This document shows, one piece after another, positions 2,026 through 44,987 of a stretch of DNA of 54,032 nucleotides. Position numbers and translations under genes: made by a program. Within the stretch, counting starts at the first letter, position 1. Every line of letters starts with the position of its first letter. The stretch comes from an uncultured bacterium (GTDB lineage Bacteria; Verrucomicrobiota; Kiritimatiellia; RFP12; UBA1067): positions 15,041 to 69,072 of the forward strand of contig CADCCQ010000029.1 of the NCBI GenBank assembly GCA_902799955.1, written 5' to 3'. The notes beneath the pieces were generated by a model. It saw only the letters and a list, made by a program, of their open reading frames with translations. It was not told the DNA's origin and ran no database searches.

Positions 2026-2433
2026 TCACGACCGCAGAAGGGCGCGGACGCTGTAGTCGACAAAGTCTCCGCCCATAACGGGTGGAGAGGTCGCGTGCGG
2101 CTGACCGTACGCAATGCACGACGCCGTGACGTTTTGTTCGTCTTGACGTGGCAGTGCAATATGAACCAATGATGGAGCCGCGATTTCTGAATCGACAGAC
2201 TCTACATCAGGCAATTCAAATTTGAGATGATTGCATTCCGCCGCCTCCACGTGAACGCAAGGGGGATGGGCGACAGCAGAAAGACCATGGGCACATTCTT
2301 CGCACGGATCGTCTTCGTCAAGCGAACAGAAGCACAACTCGGTTCCCTGCATCAACGCAAGGAACGTCAGGATGAGGGCTTGGAACGCGCATACAAGACG
2401 CCTCATCACGGCATGTCGGCTTTTTGTGTTCAC
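2026..2433 (-). CDS. Small exported Cys/His-rich protein
   Basis: 135-residue protein that I do not recognise by family. A basic N-terminus (about 1-12) and hydrophobic segment (about 13-30) look like a signal peptide. After it come C34-x-C36, C44-xx-C47, H56, C59, H61, C67 and H69, a clustering that suggests metal binding. The second half has no motif I can name. It lies 158 nt upstream of the metal RND gene on the same strand, so a periplasmic metal-binding or sensing role is a reasonable inference. The GTG start at 2433 sits 8 nt after a TATAAT box, implying a leaderless message; the ATG at 2406 is the alternative. Confidence 0.6.
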   Translation of the reverse strand: MNTKSRHAVMRRLVCAFQALILTFLALMQGTELCFCSLDEDDPCEECAHGLSAVAHPPCVHVEAAECNHLKFELPDVESVDSEIAAPSLVHIALPRQDEQNVTASCIAYGQPHATSPPVMGGDFVDYSVRALLRS

Positions 2434-2441
2434 TGCACATT

Positions 2442-2470
2442 ATTATAGCAAAATACAACATTTTCGTCAA
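2442..2470 (-). promoter_or_regulatory. Promoter of the Cys-rich/RND genes, leaderless geometry
   Basis: On the minus strand TTGACG (2470-2465), a 17-bp spacer and TATAAT (2447-2442) with TGC in front (extended -10). The GTG start lies 8 nt after the -10, where transcription itself should begin. The rplU promoter on the other strand begins about 35 bp away, so this is a divergent promoter pair. Confidence 0.75.
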
Positions 2471-2505
2471 TTCAAGATTTGAATGTATTTTGCTGAAAAA
2501 GGGGG

Positions 2506-2534
2506 TTGACAATAAACTTCCGATATTGTATACT
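2506..2534 (+). promoter_or_regulatory. Sigma-70 promoter of rplU-rpmA
   Basis: TTGACA (2506-2511), exactly 17 bp, then TATACT (2529-2534). The predicted transcription start is near 2541, giving a leader of about 60 nt before rplU. Confidence 0.88.
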
Positions 2535-2551
2535 ATTCAGACCAGTTTTTC

Positions 2552-2570
2552 GTGGGAATAGCATTCCCAC
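2552..2570 (+). promoter_or_regulatory. Leader hairpin in the rplU 5' UTR
   Basis: GTGGGAAT (2552-2559), loop AGC, ATTCCCAC (2563-2570): a perfect 8-bp stem in the mRNA leader, 30 nt before the rplU start and upstream of the AAAGG ribosome site. Ribosomal protein operons, including rplU in other phyla, often carry autoregulatory leader structures. Such a role here is inferred from position only. Confidence 0.5.
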
Positions 2571-2600
2571 AAGGAAAACGGTGCAAAAAGGAAAAAACAA

Positions 2601-2915
2601 ATGGAAGCATACGCAGTACTAGAGACCGGCGGCAAGCAGGTGCTTGTTCGTTCCGGCGACAAGATCGAGATTGAAAAGCTCTCGGTCGAGGTAGGTCAGG
2701 ACACCGTCCTGAACACCGTCTGCGCCATCTCGGATGGCGAGACGCTCAGGGTCGGCACCCCGTACGTCGAGGGTGCGTCGGTCACGCTTACGATCGACGG
2801 ACACAAGCGCGGCAAGAAGGTCATCAACTTCAAGGCAAAGCGCAGGAAGGGCGCTCGCCGGAAAGTCGGCCACCGCCAGGAGCTTACAGTCGCAACCGTC
2901 AAGGCGATCGCGTAG
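2601..2915 (+). CDS. rplU: 50S ribosomal protein L21
   Basis: 104-residue large-subunit protein that binds 23S rRNA. The N-terminal YAVLETGGKQVLV and the basic C-terminal stretch FKAKRRKGARRKVGHRQ are diagnostic, and the length is typical of the family. The start is fixed by AAAGG 9 nt upstream. It is followed after 15 nt by rpmA, the usual rplU-rpmA pair; obgE, which often follows, is absent because a terminator comes next. Confidence 0.97.
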   Translation: MEAYAVLETGGKQVLVRSGDKIEIEKLSVEVGQDTVLNTVCAISDGETLRVGTPYVEGASVTLTIDGHKRGKKVINFKAKRRKGARRKVGHRQELTVATVKAIA

Positions 2916-2930
2916 AAAGGAGAAGTCGAA

Positions 2931-3167
2931 ATGGCAAGTTCTGCATCTGCGCGCAATGGGCGCGATTCAAACCCGAAGTATCTCGGCGTAAAGGCCTATG
3001 ATGGGCAGACCCTCACGGCCGGCTCGATCATCGTCCGCCAGAGAGGCACCAAGATCCATCCCGGCAAGAATGTCGGACAGGGTCGCGACTTCACGCTCTT
3101 CGCACTGAAGGACGGCAAAGTGAAGTTCATCAAGGACGGCAAGGTCGTCACGATCGTCGAGTCCTGA
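2931..3167 (+). CDS. rpmA: 50S ribosomal protein L27 with atypical N-terminus
   Basis: 78-residue L27, recognised from RNGRDS near the N-terminus, LGVK, the central [19 protein letters not shown] and [14 protein letters not shown]. An AAAGGAG site lies 8 nt before the ATG, so the start is secure. The N-terminal arm that reaches the peptidyl-transferase centre normally reads AHKKAGGST before RNGRDS. Here it reads MASSASA: the His and both Lys are missing and the arm is a few residues shorter. It is not the cleaved, extended form of Firmicutes either. Confidence 0.96.
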
Positions 3168-3197
3168 TCAACTCGCACACCTAGTCGTGTAACACAT

Positions 3198-3229
3198 AAT
3201 GCGGGCCACCCGGCCCGCATTTGTTTTTT
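3198..3229 (+). terminator. Rho-independent terminator of rplU-rpmA
   Basis: AATGCGGGCC (3198-3207), loop ACCC, GGCCCGCATT (3212-3221): a perfect 10-bp stem followed by a T-rich run to 3229. It lies 30 nt after the rpmA stop. Confidence 0.95.
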
Positions 3230-3341
3230 GTTTACGCAGTGGATTTTACGACCAATCCCTTAAATCGCTTAAATCCCTGGAATCCCGTCTAAAAGTTAAA
3301 ACAGCCCTCCGCCCTTTTGCGCATAATGTGTGTTATGTAAA

Positions 3342-4613
3342 CTACGATTTCAGGAAAGCAAGCCGTTTGGCTATGGTTGCCTCATACCCCTCCAGCGTCG
3401 GACGGTAATAGGTCTTCGGGACCTTCATGTAGTCCTGCTTCACGAAATGGTTGGCGAAATTGTGCGGATACTTGTATTCTGTCACCGTCTCGCTGCCTAT
3501 GGCGCGGACGTGTTTGTTCTTCAAATGTTCGGGTACAGGCTGAACCGCGCCAGACTCAACGTCAGCCATGGCTTCGCTGATCGCCATGCAGCTGGCGTTG
3601 GACTTGGGTGCCGACGCAAGATACGTCGTGGCCTGGGCAAGGTTGATGGCGCATTCAGGCATGCCGACAAAATCGCAAGCCTGCATGGCGGCGACGGCGA
3701 CGGACAATCCCCTAGGATCGGCGTTGCCGATGTCCTCGCTGGCGCTGATCACAAGCCGCCGCGCTATGAACCGTGGATCCTCTCCGGCAACAAGCATCTT
3801 GCCAAGCCAATAGATGGCTGCGTCGGGGTCGCTTCCGCGAATCGACTTTATGAACGCCGAAATCGTATCGTAGTGTCCTTCTTCGGTCTTGTCGTACCGG
3901 ACCTGGCGACGCTGGACGCATTCCTGGATTACATCTATCGTGAGATGTACCTTGCCGTCCTCGGATCTAGGCGTGGACAGCATAGCGATCTCCAGTGCCG
4001 TCAAGGCGTGGCGCGCGTCGCCGTCGGCAATCTCGGAAAGGAATTGAAGGGCGTCAGGGTCGATTACGGAAGGGGTCTTGCCGAATCCCCTTCTTTCGTC
4101 GGCAAGCGCCCTTTTCAGCAATGTCGATATGTCCGGCGGCGCAATGGGATGAAGCTCGAAGACAAGCGAACGTGAAGTCAGAGGCGTGTTGATGAAGAAG
4201 CTTGGATTATGCGTCGTGGCGCCGATCAAGACGACGGTTCCATTCTCTACGTACGGAAGCAATACGTCTTGCTGCGACTTGCTGAACCTGTGGATCTCGT
4301 CGATGAAAAGGATTGATCCCCTTCCGCCAAGCTCGTCCCTCGCCCTGTCGCAGATGCGCCGAATGTCGGCGACGCCAGACGCTACGGCCGAAAGCCTGAC
4401 GAAATTCCTCTGCGTAGTGTGTGCAATGACTTCGGCAAGCGTAGTCTTCCCGCAGCCCGGCGGCCCGTAGAATATGACGTTCGTGAGCCTGTCGGCCTCT
4501 ATCACGCGACGCAGCAGCCGCCCTTCTCCGATTATGTGATCCTGCCCGACGACTTCGTCAAGAGACTGCGGACGCATCCTGGCCGCAAGAGGTTCTGACG
4601 ACATGCCATCCAT
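3342..4613 (-). CDS. rarA: Replication-associated recombination protein A (AAA+ ATPase)
   Basis: 423-residue clamp-loader-like ATPase that acts at stalled or gapped replication forks (RarA/MgsA/WRNIP1 family). The N-terminal PLAARMRPQSLDEVVGQDHI leads into Walker A GPPGCGKTT (about 50-58). Walker B ILFIDEIHRF follows, then a sensor segment with GATTHNPSF and the C-terminal tetramerisation region (GLSVAVAAMQACDFVGMPE; Y-PHNF). Length is usual for the family. I chose the ATG at 4613 because AGGAG lies 9 nt upstream and overlaps the stop of the preceding gene at 4620. It is the last gene of the minus-strand series and nothing in that series explains a repair role. Confidence 0.95.
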   Translation of the reverse strand: MDGMSSEPLAARMRPQSLDEVVGQDHIIGEGRLLRRVIEADRLTNVIFYGPPGCGKTTLAEVIAHTTQRNFVRLSAVASGVADIRRICDRARDELGGRGSILFIDEIHRFSKSQQDVLLPYVENGTVVLIGATTHNPSFFINTPLTSRSLVFELHPIAPPDISTLLKRALADERRGFGKTPSVIDPDALQFLSEIADGDARHALTALEIAMLSTPRSEDGKVHLTIDVIQECVQRRQVRYDKTEEGHYDTISAFIKSIRGSDPDAAIYWLGKMLVAGEDPRFIARRLVISASEDIGNADPRGLSVAVAAMQACDFVGMPECAINLAQATTYLASAPKSNASCMAISEAMADVESGAVQPVPEHLKNKHVRAIGSETVTEYKYPHNFANHFVKQDYMKVPKTYYRPTLEGYEATIAKRLAFLKS

Positions 4614-4619
4614 GTTCAA

Positions 4620-6949: not shown

Positions 6950-6960
6950 CGCGGATCGCC

Positions 6961-9426: not shown

Positions 9427-9500
9427 GTGCTCTTTCGTGTTCTTTCTTCCGGTGTACCGGTTGTTGTGCTACATCTTGACGCGCAACGTCGCCGCAGGGC

Positions 9501-10646: not shown

Positions 10647-10729
10647 TTTATCGTTCCTTTTTTTGTTTTGTTTTTTTGTTTGTTTTCCCTAGCCTGTCTT
10701 CCGCGAAGGAATGTCCGCCGCCGCCGAGC

Positions 10730-12339: not shown

Positions 12340-12346
12340 GCCATAT

Positions 12347-12355
12347 ATTATACCA
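12347..12355 (-). promoter_or_regulatory. Extended -10 promoter, leaderless geometry (TPR gene)
   Basis: TGG-TATAAT on the minus strand, the hexamer at 12352-12347. The ATG follows after 7 nt. The nearest -35-like sequence (TTGAAG, 12378-12373) has a 20-bp spacer, so the extended -10 probably carries the promoter. Confidence 0.65.
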
Positions 12356-12437
12356 CATTTCCTAATAGTCTGCTTCAAGAAAGTGTACTTTAACTTTTAT
12401 AATGGAGAATTGTAAATCTCAAAGCAGAATTGAATGT

Positions 12438-15723: not shown

Positions 15724-15836
15724 CCCTCATGCGAGGGTACTTGCGGACTAGTTTACGCCCACCGTTCCGCATTCCGACTTTGACGGCTGCGCGACAGCGC
15801 CTGGTTTCCACAGGACTTTCCGGCTCGGGGGCCCTG
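15724..15836 (-). promoter_or_regulatory. Cobalamin riboswitch upstream of btuB
   Basis: The minus-strand leader contains the core pattern of the B12 riboswitch. GGAAAGTCCTGTGGAAACC is followed by CAGGCGCTGTCGCGCAGCC, GTCAA and AGTCGGAATGC, matching the conserved GGGAA-GGTG-AAtCC / GCTGtCgCGCAgC-GTaA / aGTCcGaa blocks. A hairpin CCCTC-GAGGG (15724-15737) close to the AAAGGG site could be the expression platform. The genetic context, a TonB receptor, fits. B12 would lower expression. Exact boundaries are approximate. Confidence 0.78.
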
Positions 15837-15842
15837 CAAAAC

Positions 15843-15851
15843 ATTATACCA
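15843..15851 (-). promoter_or_regulatory. Extended -10 promoter of the btuB riboswitch transcript
   Basis: TGG-TATAAT (15851-15843, minus). The expected start near 15836 coincides with the 5' end of the riboswitch. It is divergent from the GH95 promoter about 20 bp away. Confidence 0.65.
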
Positions 15852-15869
15852 CAAATGCCGTGGCCGTTG

Positions 15870-15878
15870 TGATATAAT
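15870..15878 (+). promoter_or_regulatory. Extended -10 promoter of the GH95 gene
   Basis: TGA-TATAAT (15870-15878). No good -35 lies 17 bp upstream. The predicted leader of about 55 nt contains a short upstream ORF and a hairpin CCTCC-GCC-GGAGG (15916-15928) that buries the ribosome site. Confidence 0.6.
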
Positions 15879-15900
15879 ATCAACAGGCAATCACAGACAA

Positions 15901-18279: not shown

Positions 18280-18837
18280 ATGCTTCACACAGGGGAGAAC
18301 ATCGTCGGCGGCGTGCCGGTCGAAGTCGTGCGCAAGCGCGTGAGGCGCATAAGCATCCGCGTCGGCGCGGACGGCCGCGTCACGGTTTCCCTTCCGCGAT
18401 GGTTCGCCACGCTCCGTGATGCGGAGGAGTTCCTCGTCTCCAAGTGGAACTGGGTCGTCAAGACCAGGGAAAAGGCGCTGGCAAACCCTCCGCCCGCACT
18501 GCACGCTCCTCCAGCCGGGCTGGAGATACTCTCCCTCCAGGCACTCCTCCAGACGCTCAACGCCAAGTGGTCCGCCGCGCTCGGCGAACCAGGCGTCCGC
18601 TGGCGGCTCCGCAGGATGAAGACGCTCTGGGGCTCGTGCCACTGGCGCAGGCGCGTGATAACGTACAACACCGAGCTCGCGTTCATGGCCGACGACCTCG
18701 TGGAGTACGTAGTCGTCCACGAATTCACGCATTTTGCGGCGCACGACCACGGAGCGGCCTTCCAGCGGCTGATGGACGAGCGTCTCCCGGGCTGGAGGGA
18801 ATTGCGCCGGCGTTTGAACAAACGCGGCAAAATGTGA
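18280..18837 (+). CDS. YgjP-like (DUF45/M48-type) metallopeptidase
   Basis: 185 residues. Family marks are VRRISIRVGADGRVTVSLP near the N-terminus, MKTLWGSCHWRRRVITYNTEL (the conserved WGSC) and VVVHEFTHFAAHDHGAAF (HExxH zinc site with a third His). It is cytoplasmic by lack of signal. It is shorter than most members, with a compact middle region. The ATG lies 6 nt after a TGC-TATACA box that directly follows the tRNA terminator, so a leaderless message is possible but less certain than elsewhere because no -35 is present. Substrate unknown. Confidence 0.85.
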   Translation: MLHTGENIVGGVPVEVVRKRVRRISIRVGADGRVTVSLPRWFATLRDAEEFLVSKWNWVVKTREKALANPPPALHAPPAGLEILSLQALLQTLNAKWSAALGEPGVRWRLRRMKTLWGSCHWRRRVITYNTELAFMADDLVEYVVVHEFTHFAAHDHGAAFQRLMDERLPGWRELRRRLNKRGKM

Positions 18838-30402: not shown

Positions 30403-30431
30403 TTGAAAAAATCTTCTCCTGGTGCTATAAT
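30403..30431 (+). promoter_or_regulatory. Promoter of tadA, leaderless geometry
   Basis: TTGAAA (30403-30408), exactly 17 bp, TATAAT (30426-30431), then 7 nt to the ATG at 30439. There is no ribosome site between. Confidence 0.85.
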
Positions 30432-33315: not shown

Positions 33316-33344
33316 ATTATCCTACTTTCGCCGCCTAATTTCAA
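33316..33344 (-). promoter_or_regulatory. Promoter of yggS-rnhB-folP, leaderless geometry
   Basis: TTGAAA (33344-33339), 17 bp, GATAAT (33321-33316), then 7 nt to the ATG at 33308 (minus strand). Confidence 0.78.
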
Positions 33345-33482: not shown

Positions 33483-33491
33483 TGGTATAAT
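33483..33491 (+). promoter_or_regulatory. Extended -10 promoter, leaderless geometry
   Basis: TGG-TATAAT (33483-33491), then 8 nt to the ATG at 33500. A TTGAAA lies 13 bp upstream, too close to serve as a normal -35. Confidence 0.65.
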
Positions 33492-33499
33492 ATACACTG

Positions 33500-34426
33500 A
33501 TGGCTAGAAAGGCATATAAACATTCGGCGTACTGGTATGCATACCACAACGGCTGGACATACAGCGAGGCGAAGACCTACGCAGGCAAGTACCTCGACAT
33601 GCACACATACCATCCACGCACAAGTGAACGGCTTGACGAGGAGTGCCGCGGCAGGGACTGGTACGTATGGCGCCAAGCGCCAAAGCGCTTCGACTCGAAG
33701 TTCAACCCCCTTCTCCTATGCGCCTGCGCCATGGTCGACATCGGCGTAGCCGTACGTGACAAGATATCAAAGCTCGCCGATCCCGCAGAACGCAAGAGGA
33801 TGAAGCGTGAACTCATGCGCGACTTGAGAAAGCTGCGGCGTCCCTTTTATTACATGCGCGAGACCGAGCGCCGACGTGAACTCGCCGCCGCGCGGCGAAG
33901 GGTCACAAAACGGACTACATCCGCACCAATGCCGACTCCAGAAGACATACTCTCAGCGTGGAACGCACGCAAGGAATCTCACGAAGCGATGATCCGACTC
34001 GGGGGGATGCTCCAGGACCTGGAGTGCTATGTCGACAACAGCCTGAGATTCGACGAATACGGCAATGTGTCAGGAAGGAACGGCGGAATAAAGGAATGGC
34101 TTCAGGAAAATGTTCCAGAACTCTTGCCAAAATACAAGACGCTCATGCGATACAAAGCTATGGTGATGCGCCTTAGGCAGGTGACCGGCACAAAAGACCC
34201 GAAACCAACATCCGCCCTTCTCGACGAAACACCACGCCATGATGTCGTCATGAGACTTCTCTCCGAGACAAAGCCTGCATTCTCGCGCATCTTCGAGACA
34301 CTAGAACACATGATCTCGCCAGATATGGTTTTCGTCGATACACCAGACAAGGACGTATACAGGAATCTGTCCGGTCTGCGAAAACGAAGGCGAACTCAAC
34401 GCCGTGTACAAAACACACGAGCATAA
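33500..34426 (+). CDS. Unrecognised basic protein
   Basis: 308 residues, no family recognised. The N-terminus is Tyr/Trp/His-rich (HSAYWYAYHNGWTYSEAK near 8-25). A Lys/Arg-rich helical stretch (about 90-135) follows. A segment around 185-230 (GGIKEWLQENVPELLPKYKTLMRYKAMVMRLRQ) looks like a helical nucleic-acid-binding region of the kind seen in DUF3102-like proteins. The C-terminus is very basic (RKRRRTQRR). No signal peptide or TM helix. Codon use is less GC-rich than its neighbours and the sequence after it is AT-rich, so recent acquisition is possible. DNA or RNA binding is an inference from charge only. Confidence 0.65.
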   Translation: MARKAYKHSAYWYAYHNGWTYSEAKTYAGKYLDMHTYHPRTSERLDEECRGRDWYVWRQAPKRFDSKFNPLLLCACAMVDIGVAVRDKISKLADPAERKRMKRELMRDLRKLRRPFYYMRETERRRELAAARRRVTKRTTSAPMPTPEDILSAWNARKESHEAMIRLGGMLQDLECYVDNSLRFDEYGNVSGRNGGIKEWLQENVPELLPKYKTLMRYKAMVMRLRQVTGTKDPKPTSALLDETPRHDVVMRLLSETKPAFSRIFETLEHMISPDMVFVDTPDKDVYRNLSGLRKRRRTQRRVQNTRA

Positions 34427-35097: not shown

Positions 35098-35263
35098 TAG
35101 TAGAAGTTGGGATTGTCCTTGTAGGAGTCGGGACTGTCCATGTAGGAGTTGGAATTGTTCTAGTAGGAGTTGGGGTTGTTCTAGTAGAAGTTGGGACTGT
35201 CCTAGTGGGAGTTAGGAACGTTCTAGGCTGTTCTAGTAGGAGTTTTGCTTGTTCACGTTGGAG
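35098..35263. repeat. 21-nt tandem repeat array at the 3' end of the trp operon
   Basis: About eight units of TAGTAGGAGTTGGGGTTGTTC-like sequence, mostly 21 nt apart, with point differences and one shortened unit (35224-35233). Its right end runs into trpF: the last residues of TrpF (SNSNVNKQNSY) and its TAG stop are repeat-encoded. Confidence 0.85.
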
Positions 35264-36006
35264 TTGGAGGGAACAGCATAGAAATTGATAGAACGCAGCA
35301 ATTCATCAAGTAGTTCCAATGACTTTACACCTGGGGATGTTTCTATCGAGCTGTTGACGTCGATGACATCGGCGCCGGTAGCGATGGCGGCGGAGATGTT
35401 CTCGGCTGAGATTCCGCCGGCGAGGACAACGCGCCGCCCAGACTCTTTCAACGGCGCGACTAGCGACCAGTCAGCACGGCGGCTCTCGTTGCCGCGCCTG
35501 CCGTCTAGTAGAACTGCGTCTTCCGGGGATTCTTCTTGCAGTAAGTCAAGGCCGGAGAGAAGCCGATGGGCGACCTCGTTCCGCTGAGGTTTGCACCGAA
35601 GGCGTCCGCGAGGGCTGTCCTGACCTTCGACACCATCAGCCCCGGCCACTCGACCGACAGCATTGAACAGCCGCCAAACCTCGTATCCCCTTTTCTTCAG
35701 CGTCGTGACGGCGGAGTCGCCGTAGTCTCCGTGAAGCTGGATTGCGTCAAGCCCGACGCGAGTTGCGACATCGACGATTTCCTCAGGCGTGTGCCTGACG
35801 AAGACGCCGACAAAACGCGGCGTCGACTTCACTGCGGACGTCCCAACGTCGGCTCTGACATGCGCGACGATTTCGTGCGCCTTCTCCGGCGTGACTTGCC
35901 GTGGCGAGCCCTCTGCGAAAATGAGGCCGAGGTAGTCAACGCCACGCCGCGCCGCCTCGACTGCGAACGCGGCGTCCGTCACGCCGCACACCTTTATTCT
36001 AGGCAT
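35233..36006 (-). CDS. trpF: Phosphoribosylanthranilate isomerase
   Basis: 257-residue TIM-barrel enzyme converting phosphoribosylanthranilate to CdRP. The catalytic Cys is in IKVCGVTD at 7 and the Asp in AIQLHGDYGD near 95. DAVLLDGR, ADWSLVAPL, VVLAGGIS and DVNSSIE follow. Two oddities: about 20 residues more than usual between VWRLFNA and DAVLLDG (polar, Arg/Gly/Asp-rich), and a tail encoded by the tandem repeat. The start overlaps the trpA stop by 13 nt. Last gene of the trp operon. Confidence 0.93.
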   Translation of the reverse strand: MPRIKVCGVTDAAFAVEAARRGVDYLGLIFAEGSPRQVTPEKAHEIVAHVRADVGTSAVKSTPRFVGVFVRHTPEEIVDVATRVGLDAIQLHGDYGDSAVTTLKKRGYEVWRLFNAVGRVAGADGVEGQDSPRGRLRCKPQRNEVAHRLLSGLDLLQEESPEDAVLLDGRRGNESRRADWSLVAPLKESGRRVVLAGGISAENISAAIATGADVIDVNSSIETSPGVKSLELLDELLRSINFYAVPSNSNVNKQNSY

Positions 36007-36752
36007 GGTGGCTTCCCCTCGCCAAGTCGCTTCACAAGCGCGGAGCCGACGATGAATCCGTCTGCGTGGCGGCAGACCTCCTCGGCCTGGGCCTTCGTGG
36101 CGATACCGAACCCCGCCGCAACCGGAATCGGCGAGACGGCACGTATCGCATCAAGGCGCGATGCGAGATCCGCCGGGAGTTCCGTTCTTGCGCCAGTCGT
36201 CCCCTTCACCGTAATTACATAGAGGAAACTGTCGCCGACGCCGTCCGCCGATGCCTTTACGCGATCAATCGGCGTGTTGGGCGCAATCAACGGGACGTAG
36301 CCGACGCCCTTCGGACGCAACACAGCAAGCAACTCCTCGCGTTCCTCGAACGGAAGGTCGACGGATAGCACCGCGTCGATTCCGGCGTCTGATACCACGT
36401 CGGCGAACTGCTCCAGACCCATGGAGAATATAGGGTTGTAGTAGGAGAATAGTACCAGGGCGGTCTCGGGATGACGCCCACGGAGGCGTTTCGCCAGGGC
36501 GATTGCGTCGACGAGAGACACTCCGTTCTCAAGAGCCTTGTACGCGGCGGAGCGGATGACGCCGCCGTCGGCAAACGGATCGGAAAACGGAACGCCTAGC
36601 TCAAGGACGTCCGCGCCGTTGGCGACGAGTGCGTCCGCCGCGGCTTCGCTCTCCGCGAGCGTAGGATAGCCGATCGTCAGATAGGCGACGAATGCGCCGC
36701 GACCCTCTGATTTCGCCTTCGAAAAGGCATTTGCGATTCTTGTGTTTTTCAT
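35994..36752 (-). CDS. trpA: Tryptophan synthase alpha chain
   Basis: 252 residues. It cleaves indole-glycerol-phosphate and channels indole to TrpB. Motifs are AYLTIGYPT, DVLELGVPFSDPFADG (the catalytic Glu and Asp; Phe replaces the common Leu), SYYNPIFSMG, VLSVDLPFEE, LIAPNTPIDRV and VAAGFGIATKAQA. AAAGG lies 7 nt before the ATG. It follows trpB by 27 nt. Confidence 0.96.
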   Translation of the reverse strand: MKNTRIANAFSKAKSEGRGAFVAYLTIGYPTLAESEAAADALVANGADVLELGVPFSDPFADGGVIRSAAYKALENGVSLVDAIALAKRLRGRHPETALVLFSYYNPIFSMGLEQFADVVSDAGIDAVLSVDLPFEEREELLAVLRPKGVGYVPLIAPNTPIDRVKASADGVGDSFLYVITVKGTTGARTELPADLASRLDAIRAVSPIPVAAGFGIATKAQAEEVCRHADGFIVGSALVKRLGEGKPPCLE

Positions 36753-36779
36753 GTGGGTGCCTTTGTTAGAAGTGAGATG

Positions 36780-37970
36780 TTATGCTTTAACCGATGGGCG
36801 GTGCGCCGCCTTGTATCTCATTACGTTTTCCATGTCCTTGTCGCCGCGTCCCGAGAGGTTGACGAGAAGAAGAGAGTCCTTCGGAAGCGACGGAGCGCGC
36901 TTGATCGCCTCCGCGAGCGCGTGGCTGGACTCAAGCGCGGGGATTATGCCCTCGAAGACGCACAGCGCGTCAAACGCGGCTATCGCCTCGTCGTCGTTTA
37001 TGACGGCGTATTCGGCGCGGCCCGTGTCGTGGAGGTGGCAGTGTTCAGGTCCGACGCCCGGATAGTCAAGCCCAGCGGAGACGGAATACGTGTCGATGAT
37101 GTTCCCGACGTCAGTCTGGAGAAGCATAGTCTTCGCGCCATGGAGGACGCCGAGGCGTCCGCCGTTGATTGAGGCGGCGTGCTCTCCGCTCGCGATCCCC
37201 TTTCCGCCGGCCTCTACGCCGACAAGCCTCACTTCTGGATCGTCGATGAACCCTGCGAAGAGGCCCATCGCGTTCGAGCCGCCACCCACGCACGCTATCG
37301 CCTGGTCTGGGAGGCGTCCGAACTTCTCCAGGCACTGGCGCCGCGCCTCCCTGCCGATGACGCTCTGGAAGTCGCGGACCATCTCGGGGTACGGGGCGGG
37401 CCCGGCGACAGTGCCGATCACGTAGAACGTGTCGTCACAGTTCGAGACCCAGTCGCGAAGCGCCTCGTTCATCGCGTCCTTCAGCGTCGCGCTTCCCTCG
37501 GAGACTGCGTGGATCGTCGCGCCCAGCATCTTCATGCGCTCAACGTTGGGCGCCTGTCGATCGACGTCAATCGCGCCCATGTACACGTCACACGGCATCC
37601 CGAAGAGCGCGGCGACAGTCGCCGTCGCGACGCCGTGCATCCCCGCGCCAGTTTCTGCGATGAGCCGCCGCTTACCCATGCGCCGCGCGAGCAGCGCCTG
37701 TCCGATGGTGTTGTTCACCTTGTGTGCGCCGGTGTGGTTGAGGTCCTCGCGCTTCAGGAGAATCTTCGCGCCGCCAAGGTGCTCCGAAAGTCGCTTCGCG
37801 TACGTTATGGGCGACTCACGTCCGACATAGTCGCGGAGGATGTCGTTGAACTCCTGGGCAAAAGCCGGGTCGGCCTTTGCGGATTCGTATGCGGCCTCAA
37901 GCTCCTTGAGCGGGGCCATCAGCGTTTCGGCGACGTATTGTCCGCCATATATTCCGTAGTGTGTTTTCAT
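36780..37970 (-). CDS. trpB: Tryptophan synthase beta chain
   Basis: 396-residue PLP enzyme making Trp from indole and Ser. [10 protein letters not shown] at the N-terminus, the PLP lysine in [15 protein letters not shown] near 87, [14 protein letters not shown] and the phosphate-binding [10 protein letters not shown] are all present, with [13 protein letters not shown] later. Length is typical. No ribosome site precedes the ATG: the GTTAGT repeat array lies immediately upstream. Confidence 0.97.
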
Positions 37971-37971
37971 A

Positions 37972-38051
37972 GATTAGTCGTTAGTTGTTAGTGGTTAGTC
38001 GTTAGTGGTTAGCCGTTAGTGGTTAGTTGTTAGTGGCTAGTGGTCAGTGGT
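37972..38051. repeat. GTTAGT-type short repeats between trpC and trpB
   Basis: About 80 bp of TTAGTGGTTAGTCG-like units, the same type as at 26950-27005. It fills the trpC-trpB gap and ends two bases before the trpB start codon on the operon strand. Confidence 0.85.
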
Positions 38052-38057
38052 TTGTGG

Positions 38058-38849
38058 TCAGAGATTGGAGATGAGTTCTGTCAATTTTTCGCCCGGGCGG
38101 GGGGCGCGCATCAGTGCGGTGCCGACGAGGAAGGCGTCGGCACCGGCGGACTTTGCGCGGCGGATGGCGTCGGCAGTGTGCATTCCAGATTCCGCGACGC
38201 GGACGCAGCTATCGGGGATCTTCCCGACGAGTGCCTCGAGGAGCGAGACGTCCGTGGAGAAGTTCCGAAGGTCGCGGCAGTTGACGCCGACGACCTTCGC
38301 GCCGGAGGCGACAGCGCGTGCGATCTCCCCTTCGTCATGCGTCTCGACAAGCGCCGCCATGCCGAGGTCGTGCGCATACGCCAGGAGGTCGGCAAGCGCG
38401 TCGTCGTCGAGGACTGCAGCTATGAGCAGCACGGCGTCCGCCCCCGCCGCGCGTGCCGCCGCGACCTGGTAGCGCGTGGAGAGGAAGTCCTTGTAGAGCA
38501 GAGGCAGTCCGACGGCCCTTCGCACGTCTGAGAGATATTCCTCGTTGCCGAGGAAACGGTGCGGTTCGCAGAGGACCGAAAGCGCCGCGGCGCCTGCGGA
38601 CTCCAGTTCGCGTGCGAGTTCCACGTGGCGGAAGTCGTCGCGTATCATTCCCTCAGAAGGCGACGCCCTCTTCAGCTCCGCGATCACGCCGCCGCCGCGG
38701 AGGGCCGCAGCGAAATCGCGCGGCGGAGGTGCGAGCCTGGCGCGGGCCTGCATCGCTTCGAACGGGATCTCCGCTTCGCGTAGCGCCGCGTCGCTTCTTC
38801 TGGCTTCCGTCAGTTCGCGGAGGATGTCTTTTTTGTCTTCGTCTTTCAT
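38058..38849 (-). CDS. trpC: Indole-3-glycerol phosphate synthase
   Basis: 263-residue TIM-barrel enzyme. IAELKRASPSEGMI carries the catalytic Lys; ALSVLCEPHRFLGNEEYL, LLYKDFLSTRYQV, LIAAVLDD, ALVETHDEGE, GVNCRDLRNFSTD and VAESGMHT follow. Its ATG overlaps the TGA of trpGD (ATGA), implying coupled translation. Confidence 0.96.
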   Translation of the reverse strand: MKDEDKKDILRELTEARRSDAALREAEIPFEAMQARARLAPPPRDFAAALRGGGVIAELKRASPSEGMIRDDFRHVELARELESAGAAALSVLCEPHRFLGNEEYLSDVRRAVGLPLLYKDFLSTRYQVAAARAAGADAVLLIAAVLDDDALADLLAYAHDLGMAALVETHDEGEIARAVASGAKVVGVNCRDLRNFSTDVSLLEALVGKIPDSCVRVAESGMHTADAIRRAKSAGADAFLVGTALMRAPRPGEKLTELISNL

Positions 38850-40462
38850 CGCCTGTTCGATGCCTCCACAAGTGAGTTCAGCTTTTCAGACGCCCTTCCC
38901 GAATCGACAGACTCAGCCGCGAGCGCAAGGGCCTCCTCGTAGCTCTTGGCGATTCCACCGACGAGGATGGCCGCGGCGGCGTTCTCGAGCGCGGCGGCGC
39001 GGTATGCGCCGCGGACGCTTCCGTCGAGGACGCCAACAAGGAGCTTTGCGTTGCACGCGGCGTCGCCGCCCTTGATGTCCTCTATCGAATACCGCTCGCC
39101 GTACGCCGCGCCGGCGTCCAGGAGAGAGTTGCGCACGGCGCCGTCCTCAAGCGAAGAGACGAACGTGAAGCCGCCCGGGCTGATCTCGTCCACGCCGCCT
39201 TCGCCGGAGACGATCATCGAACGCGTCGACCCGAGCCGCCTGAACGTCTCCGCAAACGTCATCGCGATTCTCTCGTCCGGGACTCCTATCACCTGGCGAC
39301 GCGTCCCGGCGGGGTTCGTCAGCGGGCCGAGGAGGTTGAAGACCGTCCTGAACCCGAGCGTGCGCCTGACGGACGCCGCGAAGCGCATCGCGGGGTGGAG
39401 GGAGCGCGCGAAGAGGAAGCCGATGCCGACGTCGTGGATGCAGCGCGCGACCGTCGCTGCGTCTACAGACAGGTTGTAGCCAAGCGCGTCGAGGACGTCT
39501 GCGGAGCCGCACTTCGAGGTTGAGGCGACGTTGCCGTGCTTTGCGATGGGCGTCCCAGCGCCTGCCGCGATGAAGGCCGCAGTGGTCGAGACGTTGAAGG
39601 TGCCTGCGCCGTCGCCGCCCGTCCCGACGATGTCCACCGCGTCTATCCCCGCGAGGTCTATCTTCACGCTGGCTCCCTGCATCGCCCTTGCCGCGCCCGC
39701 GAGGGCGTCTGCAGTGATGGGCGTCCTGGCGAGGGCGGTCAGGAATGCGGCCAGCTCCGGCTCCCCGACCTCGCCCGCCATCACGGCGGAGAAGAACCCC
39801 TCGCTCTCCTCTTCGCTGGGCGTCACGCCGTCGAGGGCGCGCACGAGGATCGCGCGGCGGACAGACTGCGTCGCGCTCTTGCAGATGCGCCGCCCGGTGG
39901 CGAATTCGATGATGTTCGCCAGCTGCCTCGCGCCCTGGGGCGTGCCTACGGACTCCGGGTGGTACTGGACGCTTTCTATCGGAAGCGTCTTGTGTCGAAG
40001 TCCCATGATCTCGCCGTCCTCGCTTTCGGCGGTGATCTCGAAGCAGTCGGGAAGCGTATCGCGCTCGACGGCAAGGGAATGGTAGCGCATGGCGACGAAC
40101 CCCTGGTCGAGTCCGGCGAAGAGGCCGCGTCCGTCATGCCTCAGGCGGCTCGTCTTGCCATGCATGAGCCTTTTTGCGCGGACGATCTTCGCACCGAAGG
40201 CCTGGGCGATAGACTGGTGGCCCAGGCATATCCCGACGAGCGGCATCTTCCCCGCGAACGCCTTGACGGCCTCCAGCGTCACGCCTGCGGAGTCGGGGTT
40301 CCCGGGGCCGGGCGAGAAGAGTATGGCCTGAGGCGCCTTCGCGGCGATGCCCGCGACGTCGATTTCGTCGTTGCGGACGACCTCGATCTCCGCTCCAAGC
40401 GCCCCCAGTCCCTGTACTATGTTGTAGGTGAAGGAATCGTAGTTGTCTATTACAAGTATCAT
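38846..40462 (-). CDS. trpGD: Fused anthranilate synthase component II / anthranilate phosphoribosyltransferase
   Basis: 538 residues. Domain 1 (about 1-190) is a class I glutamine amidotransferase: ILVIDNYDSFTYN, LFSPGPGNPDSAG, GICLGHQSIAQAFG with the nucleophile Cys79, and VQYHPESVGTPQG with the His/Glu pair. Domain 2 (about 200-538) is the phosphoribosyltransferase TrpD: DIVGTGGDGAGTFNVSTTAAFIAAGAG, KHGNVASTSKCGSADVLDALG, HPAMRFAASVRRTLGFRTVFNLLGPLTNP. The ATG at 40462 has GAGGAG 7 nt upstream. The same fusion occurs in enterobacteria; here the cluster order is E-GD-C-B-A-F. Confidence 0.96.
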   Translation of the reverse strand: MILVIDNYDSFTYNIVQGLGALGAEIEVVRNDEIDVAGIAAKAPQAILFSPGPGNPDSAGVTLEAVKAFAGKMPLVGICLGHQSIAQAFGAKIVRAKRLMHGKTSRLRHDGRGLFAGLDQGFVAMRYHSLAVERDTLPDCFEITAESEDGEIMGLRHKTLPIESVQYHPESVGTPQGARQLANIIEFATGRRICKSATQSVRRAILVRALDGVTPSEEESEGFFSAVMAGEVGEPELAAFLTALARTPITADALAGAARAMQGASVKIDLAGIDAVDIVGTGGDGAGTFNVSTTAAFIAAGAGTPIAKHGNVASTSKCGSADVLDALGYNLSVDAATVARCIHDVGIGFLFARSLHPAMRFAASVRRTLGFRTVFNLLGPLTNPAGTRRQVIGVPDERIAMTFAETFRRLGSTRSMIVSGEGGVDEISPGGFTFVSSLEDGAVRNSLLDAGAAYGERYSIEDIKGGDAACNAKLLVGVLDGSVRGAYRAAALENAAAAILVGGIAKSYEEALALAAESVDSGRASEKLNSLVEASNRR

Positions 40463-40490
40463 AGCGGTTCTCCTCGGTTGCAATTTAAGA

Positions 40491-41930
40491 TCACAGTCCC
40501 TCCGCGAACCTGACCGCCTCGAAGACGGCCTTCGCCTTGTTTATCGTCTCGTCATACTCCCTGTCGGGGTCGGAGTCAGCGACGATGCCCGCGCCCGAGC
40601 GCATCGTCAGGGTCCTGCCCTCCAGCACCATCGTCCGTATGACTATGGCGAGGTCCATGTCGCCAGTGAGGGAGAAGTACCCGGCCGCGCCGCCGTATAT
40701 CCCGCGAGGAGACTTCTCGAACTCGGCGATGAGCTCCATTGCGCGGACCTTAGGTGCGCCCGTGAGCGTCCCAGCGGGGAACGCCGCGCGCACGAGGTCG
40801 AACGCGTCTCGCCCCTTCGAAAGCGTCCCGGTCACGGTGCTGACGAGATGCATCACGTGTGAGTAGCGCTCCACGCGGGCGAAGGAGTCCACCTTCACGC
40901 TCCCCGTCTCGCAGACGCGCCCGAGGTCGTTGCGCCCGAGGTCGACGAGCATCACGTGCTCGGCGTTCTCCTTTTCGTCGGACTTGAGCTCGCGCTCGAG
41001 CGCGGCGTCGTCGGCAGGCGTAGCGCCTCTCGGACGCGTCCCGGCGATCGGCGCGGTGGACGCCGTGCGGTCCGAGAGCTTCACAAGCTCCTCCGGCGAC
41101 GACCCGACAAGCGTCTTCGCGCCTATCCGCATGAAAAAGTTGTATGGCGAGGGGTTGACCGTGCGAAGCGCGCGGTAGAGCGACAGCGCCGAGACGTCGG
41201 TATGCGCCACGAACTTCTGCGATGGCACGATCTGGATGACCTCGCCCGCGCATATCGCCTCCTTGCACTTCGCCACCATCGAGCGGAACTCCTCCCGCGT
41301 CATCTCAGGCCTGAAGTCGTCGTTCGACGGGGTTGGCCGAGATGATCCGCCCGAACCGTCCTCGGAGCGCTGCATCAACCTGGCGATCGATTCGGCGCTC
41401 AGCATCTTCGTGAAGATGCGGTCTATCTCGGCCATCGCCTTGGAGTATGCGTCGGCGGCGGAAGTGTCGGCTATGACGACAATCGTCACGGTGTCCCGGA
41501 CATTGTCGAACATCAGGAACTTGTCGCAGAGCAAAAACGCCATGCGCGGCGTCCCCTCCTCCGGGCGCAGCCCCACGCGCGGCTCGAACGTCTTGACGGC
41601 GTCGTATGCGACGTATCCGACTGCTCCGCCCTGGAAGGACGGGAGCTCCGGCGCGGGGGCATACGGCCTCTCGGAGAAGCGGCGGCGAAGCTCATCGAGC
41701 GCGTTCTCGCCCTCCACCTTGCCGCAGGGCTCGATGCCGAGATACGAATAGCGTCCGCGCGTCTCGCCGCCCGCGACGCTTTCGAGGAGGAAGGCCTCCT
41801 CGTCGGGACCAAGGCGCGAAAGCGCGGCGACGGGCGTCTCGCGGTCCGCGAGAAACTCCCTGAACACCGCGACACGGTCGACGCCCTCGGCGCGCCGCCT
41901 GAACTCATCCTCTGTCAGCATCTTGAACAT
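40491..41930 (-). CDS. trpE: Anthranilate synthase component I
   Basis: 479-residue chorismate-using enzyme. The Trp feedback site is LLES near the N-terminus (residues about 47-50), followed by YSYLGIEP. The catalytic domain has GEVIQIVPSQKF, NPSPYNFFMRIG, LVGSSPEELVKL, PIAGTRPRGATPADD, DLGRNDLGRVCE, FPAGTLTGAPKVRAMELI, RGIYGGAAGYFS and TMRSGAGIVADSDPDREYDETINKA. AAAGGA lies 7 nt before the ATG. It is the first structural gene after the trp attenuator. Confidence 0.97.
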   Translation of the reverse strand: MFKMLTEDEFRRRAEGVDRVAVFREFLADRETPVAALSRLGPDEEAFLLESVAGGETRGRYSYLGIEPCGKVEGENALDELRRRFSERPYAPAPELPSFQGGAVGYVAYDAVKTFEPRVGLRPEEGTPRMAFLLCDKFLMFDNVRDTVTIVVIADTSAADAYSKAMAEIDRIFTKMLSAESIARLMQRSEDGSGGSSRPTPSNDDFRPEMTREEFRSMVAKCKEAICAGEVIQIVPSQKFVAHTDVSALSLYRALRTVNPSPYNFFMRIGAKTLVGSSPEELVKLSDRTASTAPIAGTRPRGATPADDAALERELKSDEKENAEHVMLVDLGRNDLGRVCETGSVKVDSFARVERYSHVMHLVSTVTGTLSKGRDAFDLVRAAFPAGTLTGAPKVRAMELIAEFEKSPRGIYGGAAGYFSLTGDMDLAIVIRTMVLEGRTLTMRSGAGIVADSDPDREYDETINKAKAVFEAVRFAEGL

Positions 41931-42000
41931 CTATTGTTCCTTTCTGTTGTCTGTTTTGTTTGAGGCCGTTCGTCGTCCGCCATCTGTCCTTCGCCTGCCG

Positions 42001-42043
42001 CCAAAAAACAAATCGGGCCGACTCTCATAAGAGATTCGGCCCG
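42001..42043 (-). terminator. trp attenuator terminator
   Basis: On the minus strand CGGGCCGAATCTC (42043-42031), loop TTAT, GAGAGTCGGCCCG (42026-42014): 12 of 13 positions pair. Then ATTTGTTTTTTGG gives a U-run. It lies between trpL and trpE. Confidence 0.93.
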
Positions 42044-42104
42044 GTTTACGTTTGGCTGGCTACTTCTTTCTACTATGCAAGAGCGCGCGCCCCAGGACCG
42101 AATC
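42033..42104 (-). promoter_or_regulatory. trp antiterminator pairing (segments 2 and 3)
   Basis: GATTCGGTCC (42104-42095) just after the Trp codons can pair over 10 bp (one G-U) with GGGCCGAATC (42042-42033), the 5' arm of the terminator. Segment 2 can also fold back as CGGGA-UUCGG-UCCUG with the preceding sequence. These mutually exclusive forms are the classic attenuator design. Confidence 0.88.
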
Positions 42105-42150
42105 CCGTGCGCCACCACCAGCAGCAGTAGAAGTAGTTGTTTGTCTTCAT
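42073..42150 (-). CDS. trpL: trp operon leader peptide
   Basis: 25-codon peptide starting MKTNNYFYCC, then three consecutive Trp codons (residues 11-13, WWW), then RTGFGPGARALA and a TAG at 42075-42073. The Trp codons lie immediately before the segment that can form the antiterminator, so a ribosome stalled for Trp-tRNA would favour read-through into trpE. The start codon is 8 nt after the -10 box, without a ribosome site: the peptide would be made from a leaderless message. E. coli TrpL also has tandem Trp followed by RT. Confidence 0.92.
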   Translation of the reverse strand: MKTNNYFYCCWWWRTGFGPGARALA

Positions 42151-42158
42151 TTGCCTGT

Positions 42159-42188
42159 ATTCTATCACAAGTGGCGTTTACATGTCAA
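42159..42188 (-). promoter_or_regulatory. trp operon promoter
   Basis: TTGACA (42188-42183), 18 bp, TGA-TAGAAT (hexamer 42164-42159), minus strand. The trpL ATG follows after 8 nt. I see no convincing operator palindrome. Confidence 0.88.
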
Positions 42189-42230
42189 CAGGGATTTTTA
42201 AAATTTTTCCATTACCATCCCATAGGTTTT

Positions 42231-42377
42231 TCACGCAGAGGTACAGAGAGGCAGAGTTCGCAGAGAACTTCCAACTTTCGGTCTCTACTATCTTTGATGC
42301 AAACTGCACTGAAGTTTTTAGATGTTAAAAATCAATTTTTCTCCGATTCTCTCTGTGCTCTCTGCGTCTCTGCGTGA
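42231..42377. repeat. CAGAG-rich imperfect inverted repeat pair
   Basis: Left arm 42231-42267 (TCACGCAGAGGTACAGAGAG...) and right arm 42348-42377, whose reverse complement reads TCACGCAGAGACGCAGAGAG. They are separated by about 80 bp of AT-rich sequence. The pair lies just upstream of the trp promoter and after the stop of the 42393 gene. It may serve as a terminator for that gene or be a small non-coding mobile repeat. Confidence 0.7.
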
Positions 42378-42392
42378 GATTTATATGGGATG

Positions 42393-43584
42393 CTACTGGC
42401 CGGAGGAGGAGATGGGCTCGACTGCGACTTTGAAGAAGCGATGTCCGGGAGTGAACGGCTGCCAGCCCGCGCTATCGTCAAGCGAGGTGCGTCCCTTCGG
42501 CACGTATTGGTAGCCTAACGCCTGGATGTTGGCGTTCGTGTGGCTCCATCCGAAGATCGGCGTTGTCCCCTCCATGCGGATCGTCGCGTAAAGACGGCTC
42601 GCATAAACCGTGGGGTCGGTATCCAGCAGGTACTCCTGCCATGCGGGGAATCCGTCGCCGTCAGAGTCCGCAGTCGCCAGCGCCTCATACGCCGCCGCCG
42701 AGCCGCCCTGGTTGGGATAGTAGCCGTCGAGCCAAGTGTAGGGCACAGACACTCCATTTACTTCGACGGCCTGATCTCGCGTCTTGAACTTGCCAATATA
42801 CGCACCGCTGGAAAAATAGCCGTCATCAGGCCATACCATCGCAGTGAGTGTAGCTGCGGAATCCAGATTGGTGATGGCCCCTGTGTACTCAATACCGTTT
42901 GTCTTTGTCGGCACGGAGCCGTCGAGCGTGTAGTAGATCGTACCGACGCCATTCGGGTTCGTGAGCGTCACTGTAATCGGGAAAGAATCGACGAGAGTTT
43001 CTGTTTGTGAACAGAGTGGAGCCTGAGGCACAGTCGTACCCTGCATGGACACGGCAAAACCGTTGATGAGAGATCCGACATTGTCAAGGTAATTACACTC
43101 CATGCCATCATCAAACATACCATCGTTAATATTGAAGACAACCGACGGACCGTCGCCGTTGCAGAAGAACCAAATACCCTTGATGGTGTAATCCTGCGGC
43201 GAAACAAACAATAACATCGGGTTGTCGTCGTTTCCGGAGTAATAACCATAATCCCAATAGGGGTCAAACTTGTAACAGAAGTCAGACAAGAACGAACCGT
43301 ATTCATTAGAATCAGCTATTGCGAGATAGATACCGTTAACCCTGGCCCAAGCAAGGAATTCAGCGTTTGTGGCAACATAGTTGAATTTCTCAAGCCACTC
43401 TTCGTCATTTATACTATCAACCATCAGCACGGCGATAGGGCGTGCATAAGTACCATAGACATCATCGATGGCGGATGTCACGCTCGCCACGCTCGTTGCC
43501 CATTCGCCGGGGGTGGCGGCCTCAATCAAGCTGGCGAACACACACAATACAGAGCAACATTAGGACTTTGGATTTTGCTTTCAT
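42393..43584 (-). CDS. Secreted protein with chitobiase-like C-terminal domain, apparent frameshift in signal peptide
   Basis: The main frame (42393-43547, 384 residues) has an acidic, aromatic-rich N-terminal region that I cannot name. A chitobiase/beta-hexosaminidase C-terminal-like domain follows around 190-250 (VTLTNPNGVGTIYYTLDGSVPTKTNGIEYTG). Then come ATADSDGDGFPAWQEYLLDTDPT, a Ca-binding-type repeat, and a terminal FFKVAVEP strand. Its own start would be a TTG without signal. An ATG at 43584 opens MKAKSKVLMLLCIVC, a signal peptide in another frame that stops after 20 codons. One extra GT in the GTGTGTGT tract (about 43540-43547) would join them as ...CIVCVFASLIEA. Confidence 0.6.
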
Positions 43585-43590
43585 GGTTTA

Positions 43591-43619
43591 ATTATACCAA
43601 ACTACGACATAAAACACAA
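43591..43619 (-). promoter_or_regulatory. Promoter upstream of the chitobiase-like-domain gene
   Basis: TTGTGT (43619-43614), 17 bp, TGG-TATAAT (hexamer 43596-43591). The ATG at 43584 follows after 6 nt, again a leaderless layout. Confidence 0.65.
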
Positions 43620-43787
43620 TACCTTCACGCTGGTAATAAATCTGATTGTGGCTAGGAATATACGGAATCACACAGAAGACTGAATCTCAGAGTCCTCCGT
43701 GGCAACTAAAAATCAACATGTTAAAGCCACATCTTTAGTCCACGGAAATCGCACCACCTCCCAATAAAAACACTTTTCAATAAACGC

Positions 43788-43816
43788 TTGACTTTAAACA
43801 CTTCAGATGATAATAT
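43788..43816 (+). promoter_or_regulatory. Promoter of the XylR-type regulator, leaderless geometry
   Basis: TTGACT (43788-43793), 17 bp, TGA-TAATAT (hexamer 43811-43816), then 7 nt to the ATG at 43824. Confidence 0.75.
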
Positions 43817-43823
43817 TCTCAAT

Positions 43824-44987
43824 ATGAAAGATGTAAAAACAATCATTCTCCTCTTCGAGAGCAGCTACGAATACGGGCGCGAGTTCCTAAAGGGAGTGGC
43901 GCAGTACGCGCGCGAGCGCCGCAACTGGCATCTGCGCCTCTATCCGCTGGCAGTGGCCGACGTAAAGAACCCGCTAGCCGGTTGCGACGGCATCATCGCC
44001 CGTTCAGCCGAAGCTGCCACCATGCAACGTCTGAAAGCGTCAGGATTGCCGCTCGTGGACGCGTTCTGCCAGGTGCAGGATCCCGACATCGTCGGCGTGG
44101 ACAGCAACCATGAAACGATTGCAGTCATGGCCGCAAAGCATTTAATGCATCGCCACTTCAGAAACTTCGCCTACTGCGGATACCGCGGCACGCGCTATTC
44201 CGACATGATGGCCGCCGCGTTTTCGCGCACTCTCGCAAAGGCCGGACACAAGTGCCTGGAATACGGCATACTCGAAAAGCCCACCGACGCCGTTTTCTCC
44301 GACAACGGGGCGCGGAAGCCTAAATCCCCGCGCCGCCTGGCAGCGTGGCTCGCCAAGCTTCCGTCCCGCACGGCGATATTCTGTGCAAACGACCTCAGGG
44401 CCTACAACGTGCTGAACATCTGTAATGAAATCGGTCGAAATGTGCCGTCCGACATCGCGATCATAGGCGTGGACAACGACACGGTTCTCTGCTCGTGCGC
44501 CTCGGTGCCGCTTTCGAGCATCGACCCCAACGCCTTCAACGTCGGGCATACCGCGGCAAAGGTCCTTGACGACCTCATGGAGCATCGCACGTCGCAGCAG
44601 GATGCACGTTCCATCCACTATGTCAAGCCAGGAGATCTAATCGAGCGCGAATCGACCGAGACATATCCGCTGGATCCGTCGTGGCTCGCGGAGGCGCTCG
44701 TCCACGTGGACGCAAACATAAGTCGTCCACTGTCGGCACACAACCTCCTCAAGATTGCGGGCGTGTCGCACACCGCTCTCCAGAAGACGTTCAAGCGCAA
44801 GGTCGGCATGAGTCCCGGACGCTACATCCTGTCGGTGAAGATGCGAGAGGCCCAGCGGCTGCTTGAGACAAAGAAGATACTTGTGAAGGAAATCGCCATG
44901 CGGACGGGATTCCCCGACCCCAAGTATTTCTGCCGCACCTACCACGCCTACTTCGGCCACCCTCCATCGCTGGCAAGCGTCGAGTAG
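43824..44987 (+). CDS. XylR-type transcription regulator (LacI-like sensor + AraC HTH)
   Basis: 387 residues from the ATG at 43824. The N-terminal half (about 5-275) is a periplasmic-binding-protein-like sugar sensor: TIILLFESSYEYGREFLKGVAQYARE, PDIVGVDSNHETIAVMAAKHL, FCANDLRAYNVLNICNEIGRNVPSDIAIIGVDND. The C-terminal 100 residues are an AraC-type double HTH: LLKIAGVSHTALQKTFKRKVGMSPGRYILSVKMREAQRLL and VKEIAMRTGFPDPKYFCRTYHAYFG. It converges on murQ with 9 nt between the genes, so it may control the amino-sugar cluster. The ligand is unknown. Confidence 0.92.
   Translation: MKDVKTIILLFESSYEYGREFLKGVAQYARERRNWHLRLYPLAVADVKNPLAGCDGIIARSAEAATMQRLKASGLPLVDAFCQVQDPDIVGVDSNHETIAVMAAKHLMHRHFRNFAYCGYRGTRYSDMMAAAFSRTLAKAGHKCLEYGILEKPTDAVFSDNGARKPKSPRRLAAWLAKLPSRTAIFCANDLRAYNVLNICNEIGRNVPSDIAIIGVDNDTVLCSCASVPLSSIDPNAFNVGHTAAKVLDDLMEHRTSQQDARSIHYVKPGDLIERESTETYPLDPSWLAEALVHVDANISRPLSAHNLLKIAGVSHTALQKTFKRKVGMSPGRYILSVKMREAQRLLETKKILVKEIAMRTGFPDPKYFCRTYHAYFGHPPSLASVE

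Follow-up and report, generated by a model that had tools for sequence, protein, structure and literature searches.

The DNA examined here is a stretch of 54,032 nt (the window, meaning that whole stretch), belonging to the genome (3.81 Mb in 148 contigs) of an uncultured gut bacterium from the Kiritimatiellae. At several genes in this window the -10 promoter hexamer lies only a few nucleotides before the start codon, a geometry predicted to yield leaderless mRNAs. An earlier note on this DNA had named eight such geometries, and a recheck of the sequence found the hexamers and spacings of all eight exact to the letter:

2433, minus strand: TTGACG (2465-2470), 17 nt, TATAAT (2442..2447), 8 nt, GTG; Cys-rich open reading frame (ORF) of 135 amino acids (aa)
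12339, minus strand: extended -10 TGGTATAAT at 12347..12352, 7 nt, ATG; ORF of 312 aa
30439, plus strand: TTGAAA, 17 nt, TATAAT, 7 nt, ATG, with extended -10 TGCTATAAT at 30426..30431; TadA-like deaminase
33308, minus strand: TTGAAA, 17 nt, GATAAT (33316..33321), 7 nt, ATG; YggS family
33500, plus strand: extended -10 TGGTATAAT at 33486..33491, 8 nt, ATG; ORF of 308 aa
42150, minus strand: TTGACA (42183-42188), 18 nt, TAGAAT (42159..42164), 8 nt, ATG; promoter of trpL
43584, minus strand: TTGTGT, 17 nt, TATAAT (43591..43596; extended -10 TGGTATAAT), 6 nt, ATG; frame of 20 aa
43824, plus strand: TTGACT, 17 nt, TAATAT (43811..43816), 7 nt, ATG; periplasmic-binding-protein-like and AraC-type regulator

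A possible ninth case, at 18280, was not supported: the only candidate there, TATACA-6-ATG, is no acceptable -10, and a tRNA followed by a hairpin and T run precedes it.

Such starts are only modestly more frequent in the window than expected by chance, so a fair test of the claim needs the whole genome. In the whole genome, TATAAT-N7-ATG occurs 79 times, compared with 4 times for the reversed pattern, and TATAAT-N6-8-ATG occurs 171 times, compared with 37 for TATAAT-N12-14-ATG as an internal control. Individual spacings were counted in sample A, which comprises 0.83 Mb and is made up of the window and L009-L048 (stretches of C1-C9, one of C64). For ATG-started ORFs of at least 100 codons, we found 7, 10 and 7 cases at spacings of 6, 7 and 8 nt and 4 at spacing 0, whereas every other spacing up to 14 nt had 0-2. 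The counts rose again, more broadly, around 33-36 nt, as ordinary leaders would give. Some stretch ends in sample A had been set from already listed places, a small bias that is absent from the whole-genome counts. Sample B (L129-L148) was chosen mostly around listed TATAAT-N7-ATG places, which inflates its count at spacing 7; it was excluded from the spacing analysis and entered the pooled consensus given below. A crude gene caller of our own trimmed several starts and missed genes such as 30439, 33308 and 33500. It was kept for a first spectrum only, which gave 8, 8 and 8 at 6-8 nt with at most one mismatch (other spacings reached 10) and 7, 7 and 6 for exact TATAAT, and was unconvincing alone.

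The earlier note had proposed a genome-wide count of TATAAT-to-start distances as a check, and the count does show a peak at 6-8 nt. GTG and TTG starts in sample A showed no such peak. The GTG case at 2433 is less secure for lack of a GTG peak, although a GTG-started trp leader is present in one relative (L175).

To characterise these starts, we drew from the exact TATAAT sites of sample A (174 in total) a leaderless class, with an ATG (at least 60 codons) at 5-9 nt (n = 30), and a leadered class, with the first such ATG at 15-60 nt (n = 60). The leaderless geometry is thus a minority, with 30 of the 90 sites assignable to a start. A pyrimidine directly precedes the ATG in 24/30 leaderless and 15/60 leadered starts (p = 1e-6; 18/24 and 7/28 in sample B), which fits the A of ATG as the initiating purine. 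A Shine-Dalgarno (SD) tetramer within -18..-4 was absent from all 30 leaderless starts and present in 31/60 leadered ones (p = 2e-7), and sample B gave 0/24 versus 17/28. These SD counts agree with the earlier note's expectation that two initiation modes would coexist. Moreover, the TGn element is found in 28/30 leaderless and 38/60 leadered promoters (p = 0.002). Pooling samples A and B (54 sites), the promoter is an extended -10 with the consensus TTGTGRTATAATAT and a weak -35.

The proteins opened by these starts were searched against Pfam for 20 of the 30 leaderless genes of sample A. Seventeen had a match with an E-value of at most 0.001, and 15 of these exceeded the Pfam cut-off; among the matches were ArgJ, UxaC (glucuronate isomerase), GyrA, an FGGY kinase, ScpB, an ABC ATPase, an FtsH-type protease, HisD (histidinol dehydrogenase) and a beta-galactosidase. 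These are ordinary genes, some of them essential.

Next, we asked how far the spacing extends beyond this genome by comparing N6-8 with N12-14 matches of exact TATAAT in each genome, with p < 0.001 as the level of significance. Within the order, 62 of 115 genomes were enriched: 28/32 of the own genus, 12/12 of genus g2, 9/17 of g4, 2/2 each in g107, g110, g114 and g119, and 5 more across g6, g113, g125 and g127. No genome reached this level among those examined from g3, g108, g109, g111, g112, g118 and g124. Outside the order it was reached by 1 of 178 genomes, and the N6-8/N12-14 ratio was 1.00 for the class (48 genomes) and 0.98 for the phylum (130 genomes). Among 24 genomes reached through named loci, 19 had N6-8 counts at least five times the reversed control. 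The remaining five had 105 versus 36 (L055), 160 versus 112 (L065), 27 versus 7 (L072), 89 versus 60 (Kiritimatiellota bacterium B12222) and 106 versus 67 (Pontiella sulfatireligans). As the test requires an exact TATAAT, lineages with looser boxes could be missed. With a degenerate extended -10, a mixed set including more distant relatives (L065-L086, 335 kb) showed a modest excess of 8, 4 and 4 at 6-8 nt, and L087-L128 (650 kb) gave 1, 6 and 4, so that absence of the exact-TATAAT signal in distant relatives is no proof that leaderless genes are absent there.

One of the predicted leaderless starts belongs to the trp operon. Downstream of the promoter at 42150, the following features were found:

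42073..42150, minus strand: trp leader peptide ORF (trpL), 25 aa with WWW, sequence MKTNNYFYCCWWWRTGFGPGARALA
42003..42043, minus strand: intrinsic-terminator-like hairpin with T run (attenuator), between trpL and trpE
40491..41930, minus strand: trpE, first structural gene of the trp operon (35233-41930), leadered, with AAGGA before its ATG

No SD motif lies upstream of the trpL start, and the leader fold has a z score of -4.08 (minimum-energy and centroid folds were computed). On these sequence features, the frame at 42150 is the leader peptide of a trp attenuator and no stray ORF. The operon would then use both modes of initiation, a leaderless WWW leader peptide followed by an SD-led trpE, and the peptide would sense tryptophan ahead of the terminator.

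In the relatives, the leader was traced through trpE, for which 46 of 57 genomes searched had a match; the 30 best loci were used. A Trp-rich leader ORF is present in 24 of these 30 loci; in 20 of them Trp codons are adjacent, and the other 4 have two or more Trp codons. The -10 lies 5-9 nt from the leader ATG in 10 of the 24 (this genome included), 10 nt away in 4 and at least 16 nt away in 10; at random positions, a -10 at 5-9 nt is found in 11.5%. As a second gene we chose gltX, because an N-terminal motif fixes its start, and took the best 30 matches from 57 genomes of the family. Here 8 loci (again including this genome) have the -10 at 5-9 nt and 11 have it at 10-11 nt, which would correspond to a leader of about 2-4 nt; it is further away in 2 leadered loci, both with SD motifs, and 9 have no strong -10. 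Taken together, the gltX and trpL distances suggest that the same gene occurs among relatives in leaderless, near-leaderless and leadered forms.

Within genus g2, the gltX box lies 10-11 nt from the ATG in 9 of 10 loci (L205, L212, L213, L216, L220-L224), while L215 has no strong -10. With this arrangement the leader would be constant, about 2-4 nt long, rather than absent.

Returning to the window, the starts at 2433, 12339, 30439, 33308, 33500 and 43824 open frames of 135-387 aa, and those at 42150 (25 aa) and 43584 (20 aa) open very short ones. The 12339 protein (312 aa) has a signal-peptide-like N-terminus and weak TPR matches; neither the 2433 ORF nor the 33500 protein (33500-34426, 308 aa) had a Pfam match. 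By eye, the N-termini of the 33500-34426 (+) and L044:2-286 (-) proteins are nearly identical, and a -10 lies 8-9 nt upstream of the ATG in both; they are perhaps members of a gene family repeated in this genome. At 43824, the -10 can alternatively be read as GATAAT at 43809-43814, 9 nt from the ATG. The frame at 43584 appears to break at a GT run soon after its start, and an overlapping ORF (42393-43547) continues in another frame, which would point to a site of slippage or to an error in the assembly. That ORF, whose apparent N-terminal part at 43584 (-) is out of frame with it, had no NCBIfam match.

The window also contains a leadered promoter with the same box, which serves as a contrast:

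15843..15848, minus strand: extended -10 TGGTATAAT of a leadered transcript, upstream of a TonB-dependent receptor gene

An AdoCbl-II riboswitch match (15831-15759) begins 11 nt past this TGGTATAAT, before the receptor gene, and bounds how far downstream of the box transcription can begin. The region 15759-15879 holds divergent promoter-like sites, each TTGTG[GA]TATAAT, one of which feeds the riboswitch.

Another recurrent promoter feature is an 18-bp palindrome, ACAACAA-N4-TTGTTGT, found at 31 places in this genome in the spacer upstream of the extended -10. Its gap is always N4 although N2-10 was allowed, and the reversed control gave 0. Outside the window, copies stand 75 bp apart in L150:825-1211, L017, L035, L135, L137, L159, L160, L165 and L167, and a tandem-repeat finder reported 5.2 copies in L150. 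A 26-bp form that includes the -10 has 23 copies in this genome and none in the 114 other genomes of the order searched. Judged by this distribution, the palindrome is a species-private repeat carrying a putative promoter. It occurs in 6/30 leaderless and 3/60 leadered promoters of sample A and in 2/24 and 5/28 of sample B. As a cause of the leaderless pattern it was ruled out, since a form absent from 114 relatives cannot explain a clade-wide trait.

Several observations weigh against a leaderless interpretation or narrow it. The -10 box itself occupies part of the window in which SD motifs were sought; in the last 8 nt alone, the comparison is 0/30 versus 12/60 in sample A and 1/24 versus 2/28 in sample B. 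An extended -10 with one change at positions 3-5 showed no peak in sample A (2, 0 and 0 at 6-8 nt). The genome-wide signal therefore comes from near-consensus boxes and concerns a small fraction of all genes. At tadA, a -10-like box was seen by eye 6-8 nt upstream in 4 of 35 loci (L050, L054, L061, L075); the best relatives of the TadA encoded here reach at most 74% identity and come from metagenome-assembled genomes labelled Kiritimatiellae or uncultured bacterium, the sample names of several referring to the ruminant gut. Taking the best 30 of 57 genomes over-represents near relatives at gltX and trpE, and the nested trpL starts of L171, L176, L177 and L185 were picked by hand. In addition, 53 of the 115 order genomes fell below significance, including all those examined from g108, g109, g111 and g112 of the same family. 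The 3' end of the genome's own 16S rRNA was not found in its assembly; the intact anti-SD end GGNTGGATCACCTCCTT was found in 13 of the 21 genomes searched, this one not among the 13.

Apart from leaderless transcription, the -10 beside the ATG could be a secondary promoter, with the main, leadered transcript beginning further upstream. A second -10-like match does lie further up at some sites, for example L209. Such a leadered transcript would, however, find no usable SD motif within -18..-4 at any of the 30 starts, and some of the relatives share the spacing while their remaining upstream sequence is different; we therefore regard this explanation as unlikely. Still less probable is that the starts were mis-called and that the true ones lie in frame downstream, SD-led and with short leaders. 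While 3/30 leaderless candidates do have an SD-led start in the same frame no more than 90 nt further down, the share is higher among leadered genes (12/60), the N-terminal motif pins the gltX start, the Trp-rich peptide restricts that of trpL, and the pyrimidine at -1 marks the upstream ATGs. Finally, chance, by which AT-rich intergenic sequence would often place TATAAT near an ATG, could account for the window (5 starts at 6-8 nt compared with 1.40 +/- 1.43, maximum 5, in 40 Markov-1 random sequences, counting ATG or GTG, ORFs of at least 60 codons and a -10 with at most one mismatch) but is refuted at genome scale, where the peak stands only at 6-8 nt and the 178 genomes outside the order show no such excess overall, and has hardly any probability left.

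Leaderless transcription coexisting with SD initiation is thus the best reading of these data. The leaderless proposal of the earlier note is supported in that the peak is present, specific to ATG, free of SD motifs and recurrent at gltX and trpL in part of the relatives. That -10 boxes 6-8 nt before ATG recur genome-wide here, as they do in 62 of the order's 115 genomes, and are predicted to produce leaderless mRNAs, is in our view very probable. Mechanistically, the extended -10 TTGTGRTATAATAT would direct RNA polymerase to start 6-8 nt past the hexamer, on the A of the ATG or close to it. Ribosomes, either as 70S or loaded with initiator tRNA, would bind the resulting 5'-AUG without an SD helix, as in the known leaderless mechanism (PMC9031893). 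SD-led leadered genes stand beside these, and relatives retain the anti-SD.

A wider evolutionary reading, to which we give an even chance, is that leaderless initiation arose recently and repeatedly in one gut Kiritimatiellae order, with promoters sliding onto start codons by genus and by gene. The order might then be a natural evolution experiment on switching the mode of initiation, including a tryptophan sensor with a leaderless leader peptide, and by the exact-TATAAT test the pattern is nearly absent outside it. The on/off pattern among genera of one family, together with orthologues in several states, could reveal what drives the switch, such as promoter drift, operon structure or ribosome changes. 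There may also be consequences for start annotation in gut bacteria, as gene finders that expect SD motifs may shift such starts and could miss leader peptides like trpL.

Discussion of leaderless initiation usually centres on Actinobacteria, Deinococcus-Thermus and archaea. Among the literature matches listed, none reported leaderless genes for the present lineage, though the original GeneMarkS-2 paper (Lomsadze 2018) may have an entry. The excerpted text of Estrada 2024 (PMC10783764) assigns the class Kiritimatiellae to a group whose anti-SD is CCUCCUUU; Nakagawa 2017 (PMC5397173, likewise in part) is related literature. As in the leaderless class of GeneMarkS-2 described in the StartLink paper (PMC9581028), leaderless transcription is predicted here for part of a genome's genes; the string Verrucomicrob- does not occur in the excerpted StartLink text.

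The closest parallel at the level of promoters is the TA-led, leaderless gene class described in Actinobacteria and Deinococcus-Thermus in the sections available from Zheng et al. 2011 (PMC3160421). There, a Pribnow-like box lies about 10-12 bp from the translation start, with SD-led genes alongside, in high-GC genomes; a peaked box distance, starts without SD motifs and coexisting SD-led genes are likewise present here, again in a high-GC genome. Unlike those groups, the host lineage is Kiritimatiellae, and enriched and non-enriched genera occur within one family. The box also differs, being a near-exact extended -10 TGNTATAAT, where the same excerpts give a degenerate TANNNT for the high-GC groups. 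Starts here are almost exclusively ATG, whereas in M. smegmatis, S. erythraea and S. coelicolor leaderless mRNAs work more efficiently with GUG according to the portion of PMC9031893 consulted.

For the trp operon, the relevant precedent is Sinorhizobium meliloti trpL, where, in the excerpted account (PMC7298713), the ATG of the leader peptide is the 5' end of the transcript and transcription is attenuated before trpE. The operon described here similarly places a short trp leader peptide at a predicted transcript 5' end and an attenuator-like terminator before trpE. In contrast to S. meliloti, the transcription start is predicted, the peptide and host phylum differ, and the trpL genes of the relatives appear in leaderless, near-leaderless and leadered forms.

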